Shown in pieces: positions 2,683 through 45,462 of a DNA stretch of 45,676 bases. A program made the position numbers and the translations under genes. Source of the stretch: Fragilaria crotonensis (taxonomy: Eukaryota; Bacillariophyta; Fragilariophyceae; Fragilariales; Fragilariaceae). Numbering within the stretch: position 1 is the first letter of the stretch; each line of letters begins with the position of its first letter. The notes beneath the pieces were generated by a model, which made no database searches, was not told the origin of the DNA, and saw nothing but the letters and a program-made list of their open reading frames with translations. Where the stretch lies: assembly GCA_022925895.1 (NCBI GenBank), contig JAKSYS010000513.1, forward strand, positions 1-45,676, read 5' to 3'.

Positions 2683-3884
2683 TCAAAGATCACCGTCGAA
2701 GGCCGGTCCATGTCCGTACGACTTAACGACTCGCGTCTCGCGTCCTCCGATTCTAACCAGTTCATACTCTGAGTCGTATTTTGAAACATAGCGAGCCAAC
2801 TGAACATTTTGCCGTAATCCTGGATTGATGTCCCCAATCACAAGTCTCAAGAACCTATTTTGATAGAGCACAACCAAAATCTCGTGGCAGAAGTGAGACC
2901 GAATCAAACTCTTTCTTACAGCATCACTATGGCTTCTACTAGCGAATCAACGTTGAACAGAGGTCGATTCCTAGCCTCCTGGCGGCAGATTCGTGAAAAG
3001 ACATGCGCAAAAGGGACATAACACACCCGGTGTGGAACATGTAGGATAGCTACGTCCGATGCATCTGCGTCGACGGGCTCCATAGCGATGGTGGGTATCG
3101 ATTTCATAGCTGTTTCGTCACGCTCCATAGCATCGAATGGCGCGTGGCTCTCCACATGGAATGGTTTTACGGTCGTATCATGGTTTCGCGATGGATCCAA
3201 TTTTGAGCCTTTTATACCATGGAAGGTCTCAGTTCCGCGGTGGTTCCCTTCTTTTGGTTGTGTAGCGACAATAGAATTCTTGTTGTGCAGCGTTTCGACG
3301 GGTTCTTCGTCGACAACAGTCAAAGATTTATGACCATGCGGCGTATCATCCGTCAATATATTGATCGGTATCAGACCCTCTGCATGATCCACGTGTTTAA
3401 CCATGATTGATCCGACTACATGCCCGTCGTGACTTGACGTACCCTCCGGCATCGCCGTCACAACCATTGGAGAGTCCAGTATCTGAAGTGGATCATTGAA
3501 GCAAGTTCGTCCCCGCAGTTCAGTTGTACCACTATCAGCCCCATGCAGTCGCCACGAAATACCCGTTACAATAGCTGAAATGACCAGCATTACAACAGTC
3601 AACGTCTGTCCCGACATCATCTTCTGTTTGTTCAAAGCATTATGATGATTTGTATCAACAACAACGAAGCCTCTAGGGATTTCATTCCTCTGAGCATCGT
3701 GAGTTTCATTTTCTGCGTGCTCATTCAAATCGTTGTGCACATGATAATTCTCGTCATCCGGCAAGATCCATGTTACAATCCTAGTTTTGGGATGAAAGTA
3801 GTATTCGCGTTGAGCGCGTTCACTGTAATATGCCTGCCACGTCTCTTCAACTTCTCCTTGATCTTCTCGTTTCAGAGTCGTCAT
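2683..3884 (-). CDS. WW-domain protein with one transmembrane segment, function unknown
   Basis: Proposed join: 3884-2920 and 2854-2683 (378 aa). The donor is GTAAGA at 2919, the intron is 65 nt, and the acceptor AAATAG ends at 2855. Without splicing the protein would stop at 2916. Residues 16-42 form a WW domain (W16, the YYF aromatic block at 28-30, W39, P42), which normally binds proline-rich ligands. Residues 94-111 are hydrophobic and look like a membrane span. The middle (about 112-280) is polar, low in complexity and His/Thr-rich. The C-terminal part, partly from exon 2, holds another hydrophobic stretch and a conserved-looking basic tail. I do not recognise the whole protein. The 3' exon is supported only by splice consensus and frame. 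Confidence 0.6.
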
Positions 3885-32531: not shown

Positions 32532-35500
32532 TCACGGGTCTCGATCGACATGCACTCCAGGAAGTGTATCCACGATGTCCTTCACAGCACTGCTTTGAGA
32601 TTGCCGTTTCACAGCTTGAAGTCGGGCTCGTAGGGCAGCAGCTTGGCTTGATTGTACCAAGGGATGAAGATCATCGGAGGTTGCTTCAACTTGTTCCGTT
32701 GCCTTCAATCCAGACGCCTGAGCTGCTGCTGCCAAGCGCTCTCTCAACGATAGCGCCGATGTGGATGGATGACTGTTTGCTGCTCCACCCTTTGGAATCC
32801 GGCTCGGTGTTGGAATCCTCGTTGGAGTAACAGTCGGATTCGGTCTTTCAGGCGGCAAATGTCCTACTTCAGGAGCTGCAACCTCAGCCACGCTCAATCT
32901 AGATCTTAAATCTCGAATTCTGGCAGACATAGGCATGTTGAAAGTGTCGCGAGACACGGATTTCGAAGGGCTTCCGACAGGAAGATCGAGCTGCTCCCAA
33001 ATGTATTCACTGAAGGTCTCCGAGACGTTGTCCAGGTGTGAGGTTAGATCATCGTCTCCATGTTTGTCTCGATAGCGACGGAGTTCATCTATTGCTGCAC
33101 TTCTCAGAGGTCCTTCTGGGGCACTGCCAATTGCAGAAACAAGGTGTGCCACGTCTCGCGATGGTACAGAGACTGATGGCAAGCCTCGTGACAAAGGCTT
33201 CGATTCCTCATTCCCTCCTTCACTTGACGAGTGAAAATCGAGTCCCATCACCACAGACAAAACACCGTCGTCAGATGGGCTCATGCCAAGCTCCCAGATC
33301 AATGCCCTGACATCCGCAGCACTGCGGAACTTCAGAATTGAAGTCATCAATGACGCAGCCATGTCTCGTGCCTCGCGATGACGCGGTGCACCACTCGGAG
33401 CTGTTGCAAGCATGTCCTCCATGGTGTAGAGAAGGGCCTCAAAATCCATGTCGGGCGATGAGTAAGGGGTTATTGTGGACTCTTCAGTCTTTATCACCTT
33501 TCCAAACAGCTTCGTCGCAATGCGAGAGAGGCGTCCTTTGAACGCGGCTTCTGTTGGTGATTCGGCTCCAAGCAGTGCCATTTGTCCTTGCAACACCATC
33601 AGCGCCTGGAGGGCCGTGAGGCGAGCTGAGCCTGTCGCAGCTTGCACAGCCAGCTTGAATTGAATTGATGAGATACATGCTGGAAACACATTTAGCAACG
33701 TCTATAAAACCACAAACTTACCTTGTTCATTCCCCTAACCATTTGCGAACTCGTCGATTCATCTAAGCCTGAGAGATACGTTGCAGTCACTGCTAGTCTG
33801 GAGTCTAAGAGGCAATACCCAGTCGCCTTTATCAAGACCAAAAGGGCGTCTTGAGAAACGAGAGGAGCGAGCTGCACATCCCTAAACAGTGCCATGAGTG
33901 TGGCGAGTACGACCGAAAGAAGCGGTACACACATGCCACCGTTTTCAGACTTGTCGCCGTGATCAAAAGCGAAGGTAAGAACGCGCGTCAGCCGTTCCAC
34001 ACAGCGTGTGACGTCTTGTTTTATGTCTTCCCTGAGCGATCCCTCGGTCATGTCATCGTTCTCGGAGATTGCGGTGTGAAACCGCTTCAATTCCTCGATG
34101 CATGATTGCACGTTTGGGTCGTCGTCTGTTATGTTAGAGCTCGCTAAAAGAGCCTCGAACACGCACGCAGCCGACGCATAATTCCCCGGTGCTTCAACAC
34201 GAGTAGTGCGAGTCACAGGATTTTCTTTTCTGCTTGGATGGACCGACTGCTCAAACCCTATTGTTGACGTTTGTTGCTTCGTTTCTCTTGCTAAGTTCTT
34301 TTGTCGGATTTTCATCAGGCGGGCCTGAAGAGCAGCTGCTGCTCCTGAAGGTGAATTGGAGGTTTCATGAATAGGATTTGTTTCGGTTTTGGCAGCGATG
34401 GGAATTGATTTTGTTTCAGCTGCGGCGTTTTCCTGATAACCTGTTCCTCCGACCGACATGGTGGGAGTGTAAGAAAATGTGAATGGACCAGTGGTCGGTA
34501 CAATTTCGGGCTTCTTATGATGTGGAGGTTGAGAATCAGTGGCCTGTAGGCGAAGCTGAAATTGTGGGAGCTCCTGGTCATGACTAGCATCCATCTTCGC
34601 ATGCGTTGCCGCGCTGCGATCTGTTAGACCCTGGAGAGCACGCCTACGCTCAATGATGGAGGACCTCGATGAGGGGATACGCGACAGTCTCCCAGGTCGC
34701 TCGCCATCAACGGAGGCACTCTGAAGATTTGAGCCAACGGTTGTACTTTTCTGGGGGAGCTTTTTTTGCCAACGCTCCTCAATCAGGGTCCTGGAACTGT
34801 CAGACATTTGAGGCGAGCACAACCTAGCCAAGCGCTCCGTGTCGCCATCCATCTTTCCCAATATTACCAAGATGAGATCAAGAGCAGCTGCTCTATTCTC
34901 TGGAAGCTTCTCGTCAGACACCATTCTTGCTACTACAAGCAAGCCTCGTTTCCCAATCCCACTTAACCCTATAAGACCGACTGATTCTGCACACTCATTG
35001 TAGGCCATCACTCGACCTCTGGCATTAGCTGATTTCTCAAACACGGTTGCACAAACAACTGCACCAAACATTTTCGGCGGAAGCACATGTACTGCCTTAA
35101 CTTTGTCAAGTAGGCCCTCAAAGAGCTCACGAAACCGACCTTTTGCGTTGCTGGTTTTTTCCAATACATAAGGGAACAACGAAAGGGCTTCACCGTCTGT
35201 GAGGGCGCGGTGTCGAGAGCCCAAGAAGGTAACCAAGCCAGAAAGCATCGATAGCAAGGAATGTAAACCAACCGGATTTTCCCTGCTGCAGAGAGTGAAT
35301 GCACTCCATTTTAACACGAATTCAAGCTGCTGAACGACTGCGTCCCCACCTTTCTTGGTCTCGTGTTCGATGGCTCTAGCAAGAAGCTCGCAACCGTCTT
35401 TCGCATCATCTTGCTTCTTTATCCCACTGCTTGGAAACAGAGCATTCTGAGCCTCTGTCGGTATTAGAGGGGACCAAACACTCTGAAGGGTGGTCATAAG

Positions 35501-38500
35501 CATTGTTCCGGCAGGCTCCTCAGGATATTCCACCCAGCTGACCTGCTTTCCGCAAAGCCGTCGGCTTCGTTGAACACCGGCGGTTTGTGGTGCCAGTAAG
35601 GGGTGACTCGAGGATTCAAACGATAGAGGTTGTGCCACTTCAGTGCAGGGTGATCCTGCACCCGTACCTAACCCAGTTGGGGCACTTCGTGAAGGGGGTT
35701 GTCTCCGAGTCAGTGGCCGGGGAGACCCAGCTCTTTCTTTTGGATTTGTGTTCGTCTCTATGGGCTTACTTCTCTCTGACCGGGCGTCCTCAGTTTCGAT
35801 TCGCGGCGACTTTGGGACTGATGCCCCGATGATCTTCTGAACTATTGGTGCGACAGTGCGTTGCTGGGCCGGTTTCAAGTGCTGAAGTCCCGCGCGCACA
35901 GTCTTGGAGCGTATCTTACCATGGTCGATGAATGCGCTGATGAGGATCTCAGCAGCGGCCCTTGTCTCGCTCTTAGAAGAAGTTAAACCGTTCACCATGA
36001 CAGTCGAGAACGATTCACCCAGCGGTTGTGCTCGCGCCATCATAATTGAGTCTATGTTTGGAACATGATTCGCGACGCTCGCAACAAACAGCAGTACAGC
36101 GGGGATGCCGGCCGTCTTGAACTCAGATTCCTTTAGTTCGCCAACAAGCGCTATCACGAGTGCTTCTAAGGATTGCTCGTGGTACTCGCCGCCATCAAGG
36201 TCATTGGACTTCGTCCCGATCTTTATTGCTTGCAGCGATTCGTCTCGCATAGGCTTACGACTGTCATTCATGGCAGCGCCAACCAGCGACGGGAAGACAA
36301 CCTTGCCGAGTTTCCCTTGCGAAGACTTATCAACTGCAGCAAGAATGGCCCCAATAACTCTCGCAGCAAGAGGCTTCAGATTGCTCTGTGAATCGGCAAG
36401 TCTGTCTTTCAGAGCCCGAAGTAATTCGAGCAGAGTATTCATCTCGGCACCGGTGGTCATTAACATTCCAGTGATATTTCCAAGGACATCAGCAACTTCG
36501 TCTAGAGCCTCTTTCCTGAGCTTCCATGCGGTCTTACCCTCTTTCGAGCCCATCTTTGCAATGCAGTCTTTACTGACCGCGCCGGCTAAATCGCAACGCG
36601 GAACATCCAGTGTCATTGCTGCCACAGAGTCAACTTGACCAGAGACTTCTTCACCACTTGAGACTAGGCATCGCCTTGGTCGAACCTTTTCGCTCGCAAC
36701 GGGATCAAACGGATTGGCCTGGAATATTGCTTCGAATTGATTCCTGCTAGAGGATTCCGTCAACTTCGACAAAGCCAGAGCTCGAAACGATGGCCCATAC
36801 TGGCGGTGTAATTCGCCAGCGACTGACAATGAAGCGTGTTTCACTTTCACATTGGCGCTCTGGCATTCCTTGTCGAGGAAGTCAAGAACGCTGGAAATAT
36901 TCAGTTGAAGAGCTCGACAACCGAAATCAAGCAGGAGCTTGTTCAACCATTTCGTGAATGCCTCGTGTACAAGAGGGGATTTTACTCGTTCGATGACTTC
37001 GAAAGATTCGTTTACTACCAAGGAAGGCGAGTTTACGACGCACATCTCGGTCAACAGCACGGTTGCGGACGTTGCTAGCTTTTTGTCCGCCACCTTGTCG
37101 GTAGCCGCAGCCACCCCGTCCTTGCACGCCCAAGTGGGAAAGGCAGTGGAAGTCTTTGCATGCACCTCGCAAAGAGTCACAAAGAGTTCAAATGTCGATT
37201 TCATGATGTTGACATTGGAGTCCTTGAATCCTTTTGTGTACTGTTTGACAACAGTCAGGACCGCCGACGTTTGAATTGCTGCTTCTGCGTGGCTCTGACA
37301 AAACGCATTGAGCGCCTGAATTGCACGTTGTCGATAAAGCCATTGGGTTGACTTCAACCCAGCCAAGATCCCACCATTGTCCTCAGCAGCACTCCAATTC
37401 GGGACATTGAGGGCCTGCAGACGGGCCAGCGAATCATTCAGTTCGGCAGTTTGAACCGAAGTCGTCTCCCCAGTCCTTTGGACCAACGAAGTTGAGGGGC
37501 GCAATGCTTTCGGCGATGCTTTCGTGTGCGTATTCAACGGCAGAATTATCGGTTTTCGAGAAGGACTAGATACTAAAGGACCTCGGGTAACGTCGCTTTT
37601 CGTCGCTGCATCCACGCGTGACGATGCAGTCGTGGCAGAGGATAAAGCTTTGTAAGCTCGAGCGTTTGACGTTTTCAGCCCCTCAGTCACGGATGTGACC
37701 GTTCCATGCTGTTCGGTATCCTTCAATTCCAACAGGGCTTGCAAAAGATTGAGAGCAGCTTGACGTACTTTGGCGTCGGTATCACTTAGCTTGTCAACAG
37801 CTAAAAGACTCAGCGCCTTAGTCGATTGAACATTAAGCTGGCCTCGTTTCCCAACATCTTCGGAGCGCTTGACACAACGCCCAAGGTAATCGAGGGCGCT
37901 GGATCGGACGACAGAATTCTTTTGATTCTTCTCATCCAGCTGTGAAGGAACCGAATCATCCTTGTCGAGGAGGTGATCTATTGAAAGAACAGAACCGAAG
38001 AACGAATCTAGGCACAAAGCGACGGCCTTCGTCAGTTTCTTATCTTTTCCCAGCTGCAGAAGTGCGGACACGAAAGGTCTGAGATTCGGATAGAGTTTCT
38101 CCCCAACACCCTCTGCAAGCATGGATAAAACCTGCATGCTTTTCGACGCAACAGCAAAGTGGGTATGGTTGATAAGTTTCCTCATCTCTCCGATTAACGG
38201 AACGTAGTTCATTGATGGACCAGGAAATTCCAACTTGTACGGGACCTCCCCTCCGCACTCCAAGACAAGATCAAGCGCCGAAACCTTCTCTGACCACTTG
38301 GGGAGCAGAATCCTCGTATAGTAATCTGTCGTGGCGAGCTTGCTGAACAGGTTCACTCGAGGCCGATTTGCGAATCGTTGTGCGTCCATCTCGGCTGATT
38401 GTTCTTTAAGTGCTAATAACGCGTCTTGCGATGCCCTCAAATTGTCGGATGACGCAATGCTTCGGAGGCTTCGAAGGCCTACACGAGGCACACTCGCGTT

Positions 38501-41500
38501 TGATTGACTTTCAAGCATGGAGTCCAATTGCGAAACTTGAGACTGCTTCAAACCGCCTAGGAGGTCTTCGAGGGGTGATTTGGACCCAAGAGCTCTACAA
38601 ATTTCAGCTATGATGCTGATACCTGTTTCTCGCACTACAACATTCGAGTGTTGTAGAATCTTGGGCGAACTTGCTTTGATCGCCGCCAGGGGCAAGGTCG
38701 CAGCTCCAAAATCGAGTGCAGCGCTGTGAATAACCTGCAAGGCATTGACAACAATCTTTGGTTTCTTGGATGTGACACCCTTTTCCAAAAGTACCCCGAC
38801 CACGGCATTGACCGACAACGCACCATTTCCCCCGACCTCCATGAGTTTTAATGCAAGGGAGGACGCATATTTAACAGTTGAAGCTTTTGACGCGGAGAAG
38901 CCGTTTCCCTTCAACAAGGAAACAACAATGTGTGAAGCTAGCTCCGGTTTCGTGGCGCTGCAGCAATGCTCAGCAAAGCTAAGCGCGAATTGCAGAGCGA
39001 AATCCAACGCACTTGCGTTCCCGTCTGCAACCATGGCAACGACTGCGTCGTCGAGGCCAGAAAGAACAATGTCGGGATCTAGGGACCCAACCTCGATCAT
39101 TTTCTTGGACTCTTCAAGGAGAACTTCATTCAATAAGACGTACGCCTGTTTCCTCACCTTCCAATTCTTGTCTTCCAGGCACTGCTGCAAAGAAAAACGA
39201 GTGACTAAAATTTCATCTGACCCACCTTCCACACGATTAGGAGATAGAACGGCGTCAGCCGATGGTGATTGGGAATACATTGATCCTTTCGTAGGCAAAG
39301 ATTCGCATAACGATCGAATGGTGGATGAAGTAACGATATCCAAAGGCGCAGCTTCAACGACTGACTTATTTGACTTTCGCTTCCACGGTGGGACTTCCGA
39401 CGGCTCGCGCTGATTTGACGACGCTCTCAATCTCGATGATTTGACTACGTCAACAACATCCACCGTCCCAGCCTGAACGCTATCCTCCATCGGTTCATCC
39501 GATGAGAAACGCGACGCACCTCCCGCAGAAATGGCCTTCAGCTCCGCCAGCAAGGCCGCATCCTCAGCTGTACCTCCTCGGTCGCCTTGAAACGTGAATG
39601 GAGTCGATGATTTGATAAAGCCAGGTGCTTCCTCCGCAACGCTCTCTCGATCGGAGGAAGGACCGTGATTAGGAGCCGGAGCTGCAATAATGATATCCAC
39701 TGGCGCACCTTCAACTACTGACTTGTTCGTCTTTCGCTTCCATGGTGGGACTTCCGACGACTCGCGCTGATTTAAGGTCGCTCTTAATCTCGATGATTTG
39801 ACTACGTCAACAACATCCACCGTCCCAGCCTGAACGCTATCCTCCATCGGTTCATCCGATGAGAAACGCGACGCACCTCCCGCAGAAATGGCCTTCAGCT
39901 CCGCCAGCAAGGCCGCATCCTCAGCTGTACCTCCTCGGTCGCCTTGAAACGTGAATGGAGTCGATGATTTGATAAAGCCAGGTGCTTCCTCCGCAACGCT
40001 CTCTCGATCGGAGGAAGGACCGTGATTAGGAGCCGGAGCTGCAATAATGATATCCACTGGCGCACCTTCAATTACTGACTTGTTCGTCTTTCGCTTCCAT
40101 GGTGGGACTTCCGACGACTCGCGCTGATTTAAGGTCGCTCTTAATCTCGATGATTTGACTACGTCAACAACATCCTCTATCCCGCCCTGAACGCTATCCT
40201 CCATCGGTTCATCCGATGAGAAACGCGACGCACCTCCCGCAGATATGGCCTTCAGCTCCGCCAGCAAAGCCGCATCCTCAGCTGCACCTCCACGGTCGCC
40301 TTGAAACGTGAACGGAGTCGATGATTTGATGAAGCCAGGTGCTTCCGCCGCAACGCTCTCTCGTAAGGAGGAAGGACCGTGAAAAGGAGCCGGAGCTGCA
40401 ACTATGATATCCACTGGCGCACCTTCAACTACTGACTTGTTCGTCTTTCGCTTCCATGGTGGGACTTCCGACGGCTCGCGCTGATTTGAGGACGCTCTCA
40501 ATCTCGATGATTTGACTACGTCAACAACATCCACCGTCCCAGCCTGAACGCTATCCTCCATCGGTTCATCCGATGAGAAACGCGACGCACCTCCCGCAGA
40601 TATGGCCTTCAGCTCCGCCAGCAAAGCCGCATCCTCAGCTGCACCTCCACGGTCGCCTTGAAACGTGAACGGAGCCGATGATTTGATGAAGCCAGGTTCT
40701 TCCTCTTCAACGCTCTCTCGATCGGAGGAAGGACCGTGATTAGGAGCCGGAGCTGCAATTATGATATCCACTGGCGCAGCTTCAACTACTGACTTGTTCG
40801 TCTTTCGCTTCCACGGTGGGACTTCCGACGGCTCGCGCTGATTTGACGACGCTCTCAATCTCGATGATTTGACTACGTCAACAACATCCACCGTCCCAGC
40901 CTGAACGCTATCCTCCATCGGTTCATCCGATGAGAAACGCGACGCACCTCCCGCAGAAATGGCCTTCAGCTCCGCCAGCAAAGCCGCATCCTCAGCTGCA
41001 CCTCCACGGTCGCCTTGAAACGTGAATGGAGCCGATGATTTGATGAAGCCAGGTGCTTCCGCCGTAACGCTCTCTCGTTCGGAGGAAGGACAGTGACTAG
41101 AAGCCGGAGCTGCAATAATGATATCCACTGGCGCACCTTCAACTACTGACTTGTTCGTCTTTCGCTTCCATGGTGGGACTTCCGACGACTCGCGCTGATT
41201 TAAGGTCGCTCTTAATCTCGATGATTTGGATGCGTCAACAACATCCACCGTCCCAGCCTGAACGCTATCCTCCATCGGTTCATCCGATGAGAAACGCGAC
41301 GCACCTCCCGCAGATATGGCCTTCAGCTCCGCCAGCAAGGCCGCATCCTCAGCTGTACCTCCACGGTCGCCTTGAAACGTGAACGGAGCCGATGATTTGA
41401 TGAAGCCAGGTGCTTCCGCCGCAACGCTCTCTCGATCGGAGGAAGGACCGTGAAAAGGAGCCGGAGCTGCAATTATGATATCCACTGGCGCACCTTCAAC

Positions 41501-42526
41501 TACTGACTTGTTCGTCTTTCGCTTCCATGGTGGGACTTCCGACGACTCGCGCTGATTTGAGGACGCTCTCAATCTCGATGATTTGGATGCGTCAACAACA
41601 TCCACCGTCCCAGCCTGAACGCTATCCTCCATCGGTTCATCCGATGAGAAACGCGACGCACCTCCCGCAGAAATGGCCTTCAGCTCCGCCAGCAAAGCCG
41701 CATCCTCAGCTGCACCTCCACGGTCGCCTTGAAACGTGAACGGAGTCGATGATTTGATGAAGCCAGGTGCTTCCTCCGCAACGCTCTCTCGATCGGAGGA
41801 AGGACCGTGATTAGGAGCCGGAGCTGCAATAATGATATCCACTGGCGCACCTTCAACTACTGACTTGTTCGTCTTTCGCTTCCACGGTGGGACTTCCGAC
41901 GGCTCGCGCTGATTTGAGGACGCTCTCAATCTCGATGATTTGACTACGTCAACAACATCCACCGTCCCAGCCTGAACGCTATCCTCCATCGGTTCATCCG
42001 ATGAGAAACGCGACGCACCTCCCGCAGAAATGGCCTTCAGCTCCGCCAGCAAAGCCGCATCCTCAGCTGCACCTCCACGGTCGCCTTGAAACGTGAACGG
42101 AGCCGATGATTTGATGAAGCCAGGTGCTTCCTCCGCAACGCTCTCTCGATCGGAGGAAGGATCTGGATTCGACAAGGGGTCCGTAATGGCTTCATCGAGT
42201 GTCTTTTGTTCAATAACTGAATTGTTAGTCTTTCGTTTCCAGTGCTCTTCGCAGGCATTTGAACCCTGCCACTTAGATTCAGGCGCCTTATTCGGTGATT
42301 GTGTCGTCATATTCTCAATCAATGACGACTCTGGCGCGATTGGATCTTTGTTTTCGTTCGTGACATTGGAATCCCTTGAAAAGTCCACCTTGTCATGGGT
42401 GTAAGTGGAGATTGATCCTGAAGCCATAGCTGTAACGGGATGCGATTCATCGTGGAATCGACTGGACGCGGATCTAGCCGAAATTGCTCTGAGCTCGGCA
42501 AGGAGGGCGGCTTCGTCATCGTTCAT
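32532..42526 (-). CDS. Giant XMAP215/Dis1/MOR1-type TOG-array microtubule polymerase, two exons
   Basis: Join: 42526-33722 and 33653-32532 (about 3,308 aa), 68-nt intron with donor GTAAGT; the join MNK|LAVQAATGSA restores a conserved C-terminal block. Family members bind tubulin through TOG HEAT arrays and speed microtubule growth at plus ends and spindle poles. Layout: a degenerate repeat unit (1-118); eight 119-aa units (119-1071); TOG arrays from about 1105 to 2590, with recognisable starts such as CLEDKNWKVRKQAYVLLNEV, LKSTQWLYRQRAIQALNA and KTAWKLRKEALDEVADVL, plus LEFVLKW near 2405; a Pro/Ser linker with GPFTFSYTPTM; and the helical C-terminal domain used for partner binding. Ordinary homologues are about 2,000 aa, so the excess is mainly the N-terminal repeat. 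The ATG at 42526 is the first in frame. Confidence 0.9.
39270..42170 (-). repeat. Eight in-register 357-bp coding repeats in the TOG gene
   Basis: A marker (GCGACGCACCTC on the plus strand) recurs near 39511, 39868, 40225, 40582, 40939, 41296, 41653 and 42010. The first and last are exactly seven periods of 357 bp apart, so there are no length changes. Each unit encodes 119 residues including AEDAALLAELKAISAGGASR, a DEPMEDSVQ acidic stretch, a PPWKRKTNKS basic stretch and PGFIKSS.PFTFQGDRGG. Copies differ only by scattered substitutions (for example GTP/SAP, SSNQREP/TLNQRES), pointing to recent amplification or gene conversion. Confidence 0.97.
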
Positions 42527-42803: not shown

Positions 42804-42951
42804 ATACTAAGCGACATCATTTTTTACAGTACAACAGTATACACTAATAATGTCTTCCGTAACACATACTGTAAAGATACATGTCAAGGGTGCTTGTACC
42901 ACCTACTGTACTTGTACTGCTCGTATACACTACGTGCACTCGTTCAAGGCT

Positions 42952-43206
42952 GCACACTGCACACTGCACACTGCACACTGCACACTGCACACTGCACACT
43001 GCACACTGCACACTGCACACTGCACACTGCACACTGCACACTGCACACTGCACACTGCACACTGCACACTGCACACTGCACACTGCACACTGCACACTGC
43101 ACACTGCACACTGCACACTGCACACTGCACACTGCACACTGCACACTGCACACTGCACACTGCACACTGCACACTGCACACTGCACACTGCACACTGCAC
43201 ACACTG
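42952..43206. repeat. Minisatellite of 7-bp unit CACACTG, about 36 copies
   Basis: An essentially perfect run of CACACTG (CAGTGTG on the other strand), ending in a CACACACTG junction. Because 7 is not a multiple of 3, the translated pattern repeats every 7 codons, and all three forward frames and at least two reverse frames stay open. The resulting open frames are not genes. Confidence 0.97.
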
Positions 43207-45024: not shown

Positions 45025-45462
45025 AATTTGCTTACAGGAAGACAAATTTGCTGACAGAATAAAATTGCTTAAACAATTTGCTTACGAAAAGGAAATTTGC
45101 TTACTGAAAAGCAAATTTGCTGAATCAGCAAAAATATTGCTGACGGAGAATCGAATTTGCTGATTCAGCAAAAAATTGCTTAGGTGAATCGAATTTGCTT
45201 CGTCAGCAAAAATAATTGTTTACAGAATTGGCTTTCAGTAGAACGTTAGTTTATGTCGCCGGGACATGGGAACTTACACTCACGTTTTTCTTTTAAGGAG
45301 CAATTTGCTGAATTGCTGATACAATTTGCTTACGACAATCAAATTTGCTGATTTGCTTACAAAATTTGCTGACGACAATCTGATTTGCTGACAGCAAAAA
45401 TTTGCTGACAAAATTTGATTTTGCTTACAGAATTTGCTGACAGACTGAAAAATTTGCTGACA
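45025..45462. repeat. Dispersed short-motif array, AATTTGCT followed by GAC/GA/TAC
   Basis: About 20 or more copies of an 8-11-bp word (AATTTGCTGAC, AAATTTGCTTAC and near variants) lie 10-20 bp apart, with irregular spacers and a few inverted TCAGCAAA copies near 45125, 45165 and 45203. A 70-bp unrelated stretch (about 45230-45300) interrupts it. On the minus strand the word reads GTCAGCAAATT or GTAAGCAAATT. Frames are closed on all strands, so it is non-coding. Confidence 0.9.

Follow-up and report, generated by a model that had tools for sequence, protein, structure and literature searches.

What kind of protein begins with more than a thousand residues of near-identical repeats and continues into microtubule-polymerase domains, and what might the repeats do? 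This question is raised by a minus-strand gene of the diatom Fragilaria crotonensis in the 45,676-nucleotide stretch of DNA analyzed here (the window; contig JAKSYS010000513.1). The genome of strain SAG 28.96 is described in the available text of its report as a nuclear genome of 61.85 Mb in 879 contigs with 47.40% GC (PMC9476933); our whole-genome searches covered 62,107,879 bases in 881 contigs, and a 100-kb sample has 46.9% GC.

The gene and its TOG domains

The open frame at 33692-42526 encodes 2944 amino acids and runs through both the repeat array and the TOG domains without any stop, so the long array ahead of a TOG domain described in the first-pass annotation stands. Read backward from the ATG at 42526, the frame continues for 15 sense codons with no further ATG before it meets a stop. 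At its other end, the frame passes a donor-like GTAAGT, and the gene probably extends to 32532 across a short intron into another exon, giving a predicted protein of 3308 residues (Table 1).

The Pfam family XMAP215_CLASP_TOG (PF21041) matches the whole protein at 7e-42, with its best stretch in TOG1; in a genome-wide search the family is found in two places, both in this gene (a missing match in such a search does not show absence). Five TOG-type stretches can be placed, and the PDB matches follow one another along the protein in the order Stu2p/Alp14p, Mini spindles TOG3, CKAP5 and ZYG-9. All seven PDB sequences at E <= 0.01 are from XMAP215-family proteins, and on this count we rejected an identity as a CLASP; in a Foldseek search with a weak model, a CLASP TOG domain ranked first at E 2.0e-3, which is not significant at 0.001. 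The TOG domains place the protein in the XMAP215/Dis1 family, in agreement with the earlier assignment. In the usual layout of the family, which is not a defining feature, TOG1 is located at the N-terminus; here it starts at residue 1110, and this late start is a departure in layout that leaves family membership by TOG homology unaffected.

Table 1. Positions in the window of the XMAP215-type gene, its repeat units, domains and motifs.
Feature	Residues	Position	Strand	Basis or remark
Exon 1	1-2935	33722..42526	(-)	open frame 33692-42526; donor-like GTAAGT at 33721
Probable intron, 68 bp		33654..33721	(-)	acceptor placed by eye where the frame resumes; from sequence only
Probable exon 2		32532..33653	(-)	373 codons + stop; frame downstream of GTAAGT
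First (divergent) unit	2-152	42071..42523	(-)	array-like from ~42169 down to 42071
Tandem array		39331..42161	(-)	TRF and DNA matches of unit; period 357, 7.9 copies
Unit 1		41714..42070	(-)
Unit 2		41357..41713	(-)
Unit 3		41000..41356	(-)
Unit 4		40643..40999	(-)
Unit 5		40286..40642	(-)
Unit 6		39929..40285	(-)
Unit 7		39572..39928	(-)
Unit 8, first part only		39331..39571	(-)	then diverges into linker before TOG1
TOG1	1110-1336	38519..39199	(-)	PF21041, 104 bits, 1e-29; helices in low-confidence model
TOG2, approximate bounds	1386-1612	37691..38371	(-)	Stu2p/Alp14p match of residues 1103-1603, 2.1e-10; PF21041 weak, 0.0099
TOG3		36758..37357	(-)	PF21041, 36.5 bits, 3.3e-9; Mini spindles TOG3, 4.3e-7
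Part of TOG4	2000-2101	36224..36529	(-)	PF21041, 1.7e-5, 25.1 bits (below 27.1 cut-off); CKAP5 chain 4qmi, 0.0012
TOG5	2398-2587	34766..35335	(-)	ZYG-9, 4.8e-5; CKAP5, 7.8e-5; no Pfam family up to 0.1
SRIP, SxIP-type motif	2615-2618	34673..34684	(-)
Ninth PFTF	2681-2684	34475..34486	(-)	echo of array suggestive only
TRIPTPSRIP, two SxIP-type motifs	3213-3222	32793..32822	(-)	in probable exon 2

Anatomy and history of the repeat unit

Tandem Repeats Finder (TRF) reports the array with 95% matches, 0% indels and a score of 5095. Counted from the helix that opens each unit, the N-terminal region consists of the first unit, seven full units of 119 residues (residues 153-985) and ~83 residues (~240 bp) of an eighth; together, array and first unit occupy ~1,100 residues ahead of TOG1 and contain nine helix/WKRK pairs and eight copies of PFTF. 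The period and the absence of indels are therefore as first described, with the count of eight near-identical units reduced to seven and part of an eighth. Between any two of the seven full units, identity is 93.3-98.0% as DNA and 88-97% as protein, and single-copy variants tell them apart. In its front part, the first unit has only AALLAEL.AIS and WKRKTN.SV.E in common with the array, and these two lie farther apart than they do there; its last ~30 residues are of the array type, so that only the front part deserves the description of a degenerate ninth unit. To call it the ancestor of the others is too strong, because unit 8 shows an array-type front half adjoining the TOG1 linker too; it reads as a divergent sister unit.

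The unit is confined to this gene except for a decayed trace. As DNA, it is found in nine places in the genome, all in the XMAP215-type gene; the helix pattern gives nine matches, all nine in this gene (reversed control, 0), so a docking code shared with other genes, which we had considered, is not visible. The front part of the first unit, used as a protein query, matches itself only. Unit 1 as protein finds 12 places at E <= 10: the nine in this gene and one each on contigs C299, C488 and C701. The C701 match (E 1.08) was read in six frames and dropped as chance-like; the protein encoded there is, as judged by eye, presumably a proteasome-chaperone-type PDZ protein. The matches on C299 and C488 (2.0e-4 and 2.4e-4) each contain one internal TAG stop, and the two contigs are themselves almost the same sequence (96.3% across 5.6 kb, with 70 gap openings). 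On each, part of the unit core (34-107 bp, depending on the alignment, at 73-85% identity) precedes 56-57 bp that match the linker after TOG4 at 82%; the two pieces lie on the same strand and in the order of the gene. These pieces are apparently the relic of a decayed paralogue that already carried the unit, which suggests that the unit is older than its amplification (2-7% divergence inside the array).

Other collections add no relatives. Pattern searches gave 67 matches in viral contigs and 594 in prokaryote genomes, none of them confirmed, in collections where diatom genes are not to be expected; Pfam has no family for unit 1 or the first unit up to E 0.1, and the best PDB match to the unit (0.43) is not significant. 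GKRP_SIS_N, YtkA and TCTP pass in Pfam for the whole protein, with no single stretch passing; we take these matches to be summed from the repeats.

Each unit is a mosaic of variants shared with the others, a pattern that gene conversion or unequal crossing-over would produce: of the 171 informative site pairs in the seven full units, 79 occur in all four combinations, requiring at least seven exchange intervals, and neighboring units are no more alike than distant ones (r = -0.23). This bears out the earlier proposal of recent expansion or concerted evolution. Short-read polishing could add to such a mosaic pattern.

Between full units, mean dN is 0.039 and mean dS 0.061; the ratio of 0.65 points to weak constraint overall. 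The changes are unevenly located. In the helix segment (residues 1-33), pN is 0.006 vs a pS of 0.042; in the WKRK patch (residues 60-79), 0.013 vs 0.031; and in the PFTFQG segment (residues 102-119), 0.014 vs 0.110. In the linkers, the values are 0.072 vs 0.064 (residues 34-59) and 0.091 vs 0.054 (residues 80-101), and the two linkers hold 16 of the 20 amino-acid-changing sites. When residues 2-33, 60-79 and 102-119 are compared with the rest (3 amino-acid-changing and 6 silent sites vs 17 and 3), Fisher's test gives P = 0.010, for segments defined partly by motifs named in the first-pass annotation and partly once the data had been inspected. A stricter version uses the positions at which the first unit equals the array consensus: 3 of 14 changes fall there vs 5.7 expected (P = 0.09). 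An initial conservation test against the first unit (0/15) was discarded as circular, that is, invariant columns exclude changes by definition. Because the frame is intact and the change in the three segments is mostly silent, the sequence argues that the array is translated.

How unusual is such an array in this genome? We sampled ten 10-kb stretches from five long contigs, chosen before their sequence was seen, not at random, and found nine distinct arrays with a period of at least 30 (12 TRF rows before overlapping rows were merged). Seven of the nine, spread over seven of the ten stretches, combine a period in multiples of 3 with an open frame, although in short arrays an open frame says little about coding. 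The top score among these in-frame arrays is 426, vs 5095 for the XMAP215 array; the maximum of the whole sample, 1442, comes from an out-of-frame repeat of 370 bp. In-frame repeat growth thus seems common in the sampled stretches, with the XMAP215 array as an extreme case.

What the array may do

Structure prediction gives no fold for the unit. AlphaFold, given unit 1 with the other eight rows, predicts one helix (residues 3-15; pLDDT 57.5, pTM 0.13); for unit 8 plus TOG1 (single sequence, mean 52.9), residues 14-126 have pLDDT < 50, and TOG1 appears as a series of helices with block means of 48-77. Low confidence is expected either way, because the input sequences all come from this gene. 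Foldseek finds no match to the unit 8 plus TOG1 model at E <= 0.001, and its top matches include CLASP and Alp14 TOG chains. The helix LLAELKAIS had been described as amphipathic; its hydrophobic moment (0.28-0.29) is equalled by 43-46% of shuffles of its own residues, so it is no more amphipathic than chance arrangements of itself. The units carry net charges of -3 to -7, and residues 1-1104 sum to -49. A scan of the array for plus-end motifs found no SxIP and no LxxPTPh; the nearest sequence is IKSSTPF, in which T is replaced by A in three of the seven full units and in the first unit.

Tentatively, and at somewhat less than an even chance, we favor an XMAP215-family polymerase whose long disordered N-terminal tail acts as a multivalent docking tether; a flexible docking tail is preferred because the unit shows no fold, its charge is acidic, and its helix is not specially amphipathic. 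Each unit would present three segments, the helix AALLAELKAIS followed by ASRF, the tryptophan-basic patch PPWKRKTNKSVVE, and PGFIKSSxPFTFQGDRGG, joined by linkers that would evolve freely; the repeated helix/WKRK pairs and PFTF copies would provide avidity for a repeated or clustered partner, and the TOG domains and C-terminal tail would keep their usual tubulin work. The sequence itself establishes the anatomy of the array, its rarity in this genome, the mosaicism and the places where changes fall. The partner and the place of docking are our guess (spindle pole, kinetochore or spindle midzone); the disorder, the docking and the mechanism of amplification we infer, the last being that unequal crossing-over and gene conversion multiplied and homogenized a unit that already existed. 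The scarcity of amino-acid changes in the three segments and the retention of the helix and WKRKTN.SV.E in the first unit, despite their different spacing, argue for docking; the partly post hoc choice of segments, the result of the stricter test, the overall dN/dS, the confinement of the helix pattern to this gene and the frequency of in-frame arrays in the sample argue against it. A repeated docking element, as first proposed, accordingly remains plausible from the segment test and loses ground in the stricter one.

Given how often the sampled repeats have grown in frame, the main rival is neutral or nearly neutral in-frame expansion, by which a tolerated disordered N-terminus grew by unequal crossing-over into a flexible spacer with no specific partner; we consider this a serious possibility, though a less probable one than docking. 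It is in keeping with the sampled arrays, with a further array (units of ~31 residues) that C299 and C488 also hold, with the overall dN/dS, with the independence of similarity from distance and with the outcome of the stricter test; however, it does not predict that changes are uneven along the unit or that the diverged first unit retains the helix and WKRK segments, and the sampled in-frame arrays fall far below this one in score. That the copy number or the mosaicism is partly an artefact of assembly, with units merged, multiplied or cross-polished, is improbable. The available text of the genome report describes nanopore reads with an N50 of 17.8 kb assembled with Canu, Pilon polishing with Illumina reads of 250 bases from inserts of 350 bases, and removal of redundant heterozygous contigs (PMC9476933); the polishing reads and inserts are about as long as one unit and could be misplaced between units, and the gap openings between C299 and C488 point to leftover indels or to haplotypes that were not collapsed. 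However, the long reads would easily span 2.8 kb, single-copy variants separate the units, and the array is free of indels and frame breaks.

Two further readings assign the units a binding or sorting role of their own. In one, the WKRKTNKS patch would bind the microtubule lattice or tubulin and add processivity, as the first-pass annotation had suggested in calling the unit a possible microtubule-binding element. Nine such patches with few amino-acid changes would fit; the microtubule lattice is acidic, however, and because both the units and residues 1-1104 are net acidic, lattice binding is very unlikely. The linkers between and after the TOG domains, where a basic lattice-binding linker or tail would be looked for in this family, are, unlike the N-terminal region, neutral to slightly basic (+6 for residues 1613-1715, +4 for 2226-2375, +7 for 2596-2780), and the family's TOG domains and tail, in the portions of the literature available to us, supply such functions already. 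In the other, which is less probable still, the units would govern nuclear traffic, with KRK-type patches for import and leucine helices for export, repeated for strength. Nuclear import and export signals resemble such patches and helices, and the protein has nine PPWKRKTNK-like and nine LLAEL.AI segments; nine copies, however, are more than any need.

Known systems and the C-terminal tail

The diatom protein shares with the XMAP215/Dis1 polymerases (CKAP5/chTOG, Mini spindles, ZYG-9, MOR1, Stu2, Alp14) the order of TOG domains, a C-terminal tail and SxIP-type motifs in that tail; it is unlike them in the ~1,100 acidic, repeated and apparently disordered residues ahead of TOG1. The XMAP215 family is described, in the accessible part of one account, as having TOG repeats in its N-termini (PMC9891169). 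The matched Stu2/Alp14 chains, which are crystallized constructs, begin TOG1 at chain position 3-4. In trypanosomes, the microtubule-associated repetitive proteins (MARPs) likewise belong to a protist cytoskeleton and consist largely of long, nearly uniform repeat arrays; they are not known to have TOG domains, and their repeats bind microtubules. The likeness to the diatom unit, which we draw from description, lies in the long near-identical arrays, and the charge of the unit disfavors microtubule binding.

A further parallel is provided by the concatenated silicon transporters of the related diatom Synedra, as given in the available part of their description (PMC6114903). There, and in the F. 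crotonensis genome, a unit has been multiplied in frame inside a single gene; silicon transporter matches in the latter genome reach 4e-193, and single frames contain three and two transporter domains. These transporters point to a diatom; for an oomycete origin, which we had considered first, no elicitin match spoke, a weak sign in itself because control genomes gave none either. In Synedra, however, whole transporter domains are joined, whereas in the XMAP215 gene a short disordered unit is multiplied beside intact single domains.

Literature searches for XMAP215 or TOG domains with diatoms (titles and abstract starts) found no paper on a diatom XMAP215, and searches with stramenopiles, oomycetes, N-terminal extension or tandem repeats (titles, abstract starts and some passages) found no such array. 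To judge from the sequence, what is new is the N-terminal array as a variant of layout; the XMAP215 family itself is known. Diatom spindles are described, in the available text of one paper, as a key model of spindle elongation (PMC5192431). A polymerase with an array of potentially variable copy number would offer a natural way to study how multivalency sets microtubule growth, a significance weakened by the commonness of in-frame repeat growth in the sampled parts of the genome.

The C-terminal tail bears on one more reading, self-assembly, in which the nine acidic helices would capture basic helices at the C-terminus (AALQARLMKIR, AALRARLQAVK), either within one molecule or between molecules; it is highly improbable, and if true, it would make a polymerase cluster tuned by repeat number that might be of use in the central spindle of diatoms, which is large and ordered. 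In a BLOSUM scan of the C-terminus against locally shuffled sequence, the helix has an echo at residue 3274 (P = 0.03, uncorrected) and PFTFQG one at residue 2681 (P = 0.046, uncorrected). WKRKTNKS (0.51) and AISAGGASRF (0.85) have no echo there, AISARSASSRF gives 0.25 at its best place and 0.03 at its second, and an invented control 10-mer gives 0.12 and 0.04; the echo of the helix and PFTF is suggestive at most. A regular-expression version of the test (P 0.000-0.006) was set aside, its patterns having been written after the C-terminus was seen. SxIP motifs are tied to EB1 binding, and downstream of the array the protein has three [ST]xIP motifs, where shuffled sequences have means of 0.66 and 0.79 (P 0.03 and 0.05).

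Array-like segments in the C-terminal tail and in a relic

In the C-terminal tail of the XMAP215-type protein, the PFTF motif and both AALxARLxx[IV] helices resemble segments of the N-terminal array, a likeness that is suggestive at most. From its sequence, the relic carried by L009 and L010 (stretches of two near-identical contigs) is apparently the remnant of an XMAP215 paralogue.

Coordinates of the features
Feature	Location	Coordinates
Ninth PFTF, C-terminal tail of XMAP215-type protein	window	34475-34486
Two AALxARLxx[IV] helices, same tail	window	34307-34336; 32610-32639
Decayed relic: repeat-unit core, then linker after TOG4	L009; L010	3185-3385; 2977-3119
Further tandem array, ~31 residues/unit (PSPTKNGSNDVPSGKGKGSEPVKSPTKY)	L009; L010	193-890; 1-663
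Three silicon-transporter domains, single frame, 1456 aa	G000 (same assembly), contig C97	29749-33762
Two silicon-transporter domains, single frame, 1008 aa	G000, contig C771	21664-24330

Other tandem repeats

The further array of L009 and L010 lies close to an ArfGAP-like gene (name assigned by eye), whose frame spans 458 aa in L010 and a shorter 369 aa in L009. In the window, Tandem Repeats Finder identified a perfect heptanucleotide microsatellite (CTGCACA, 36 copies, 42950-43202), which precedes the XMAP215-type gene's start codon by ~420 bp, and clustered, degenerate, AATTTGCTGA-rich tandem repeats of 20 and 40 bp near the window end (45075-45430).

Silicon transporters

The multi-domain single frames on C97 and C771 are like the concatenated silicon transporters described in Synedra (PMC6114903).
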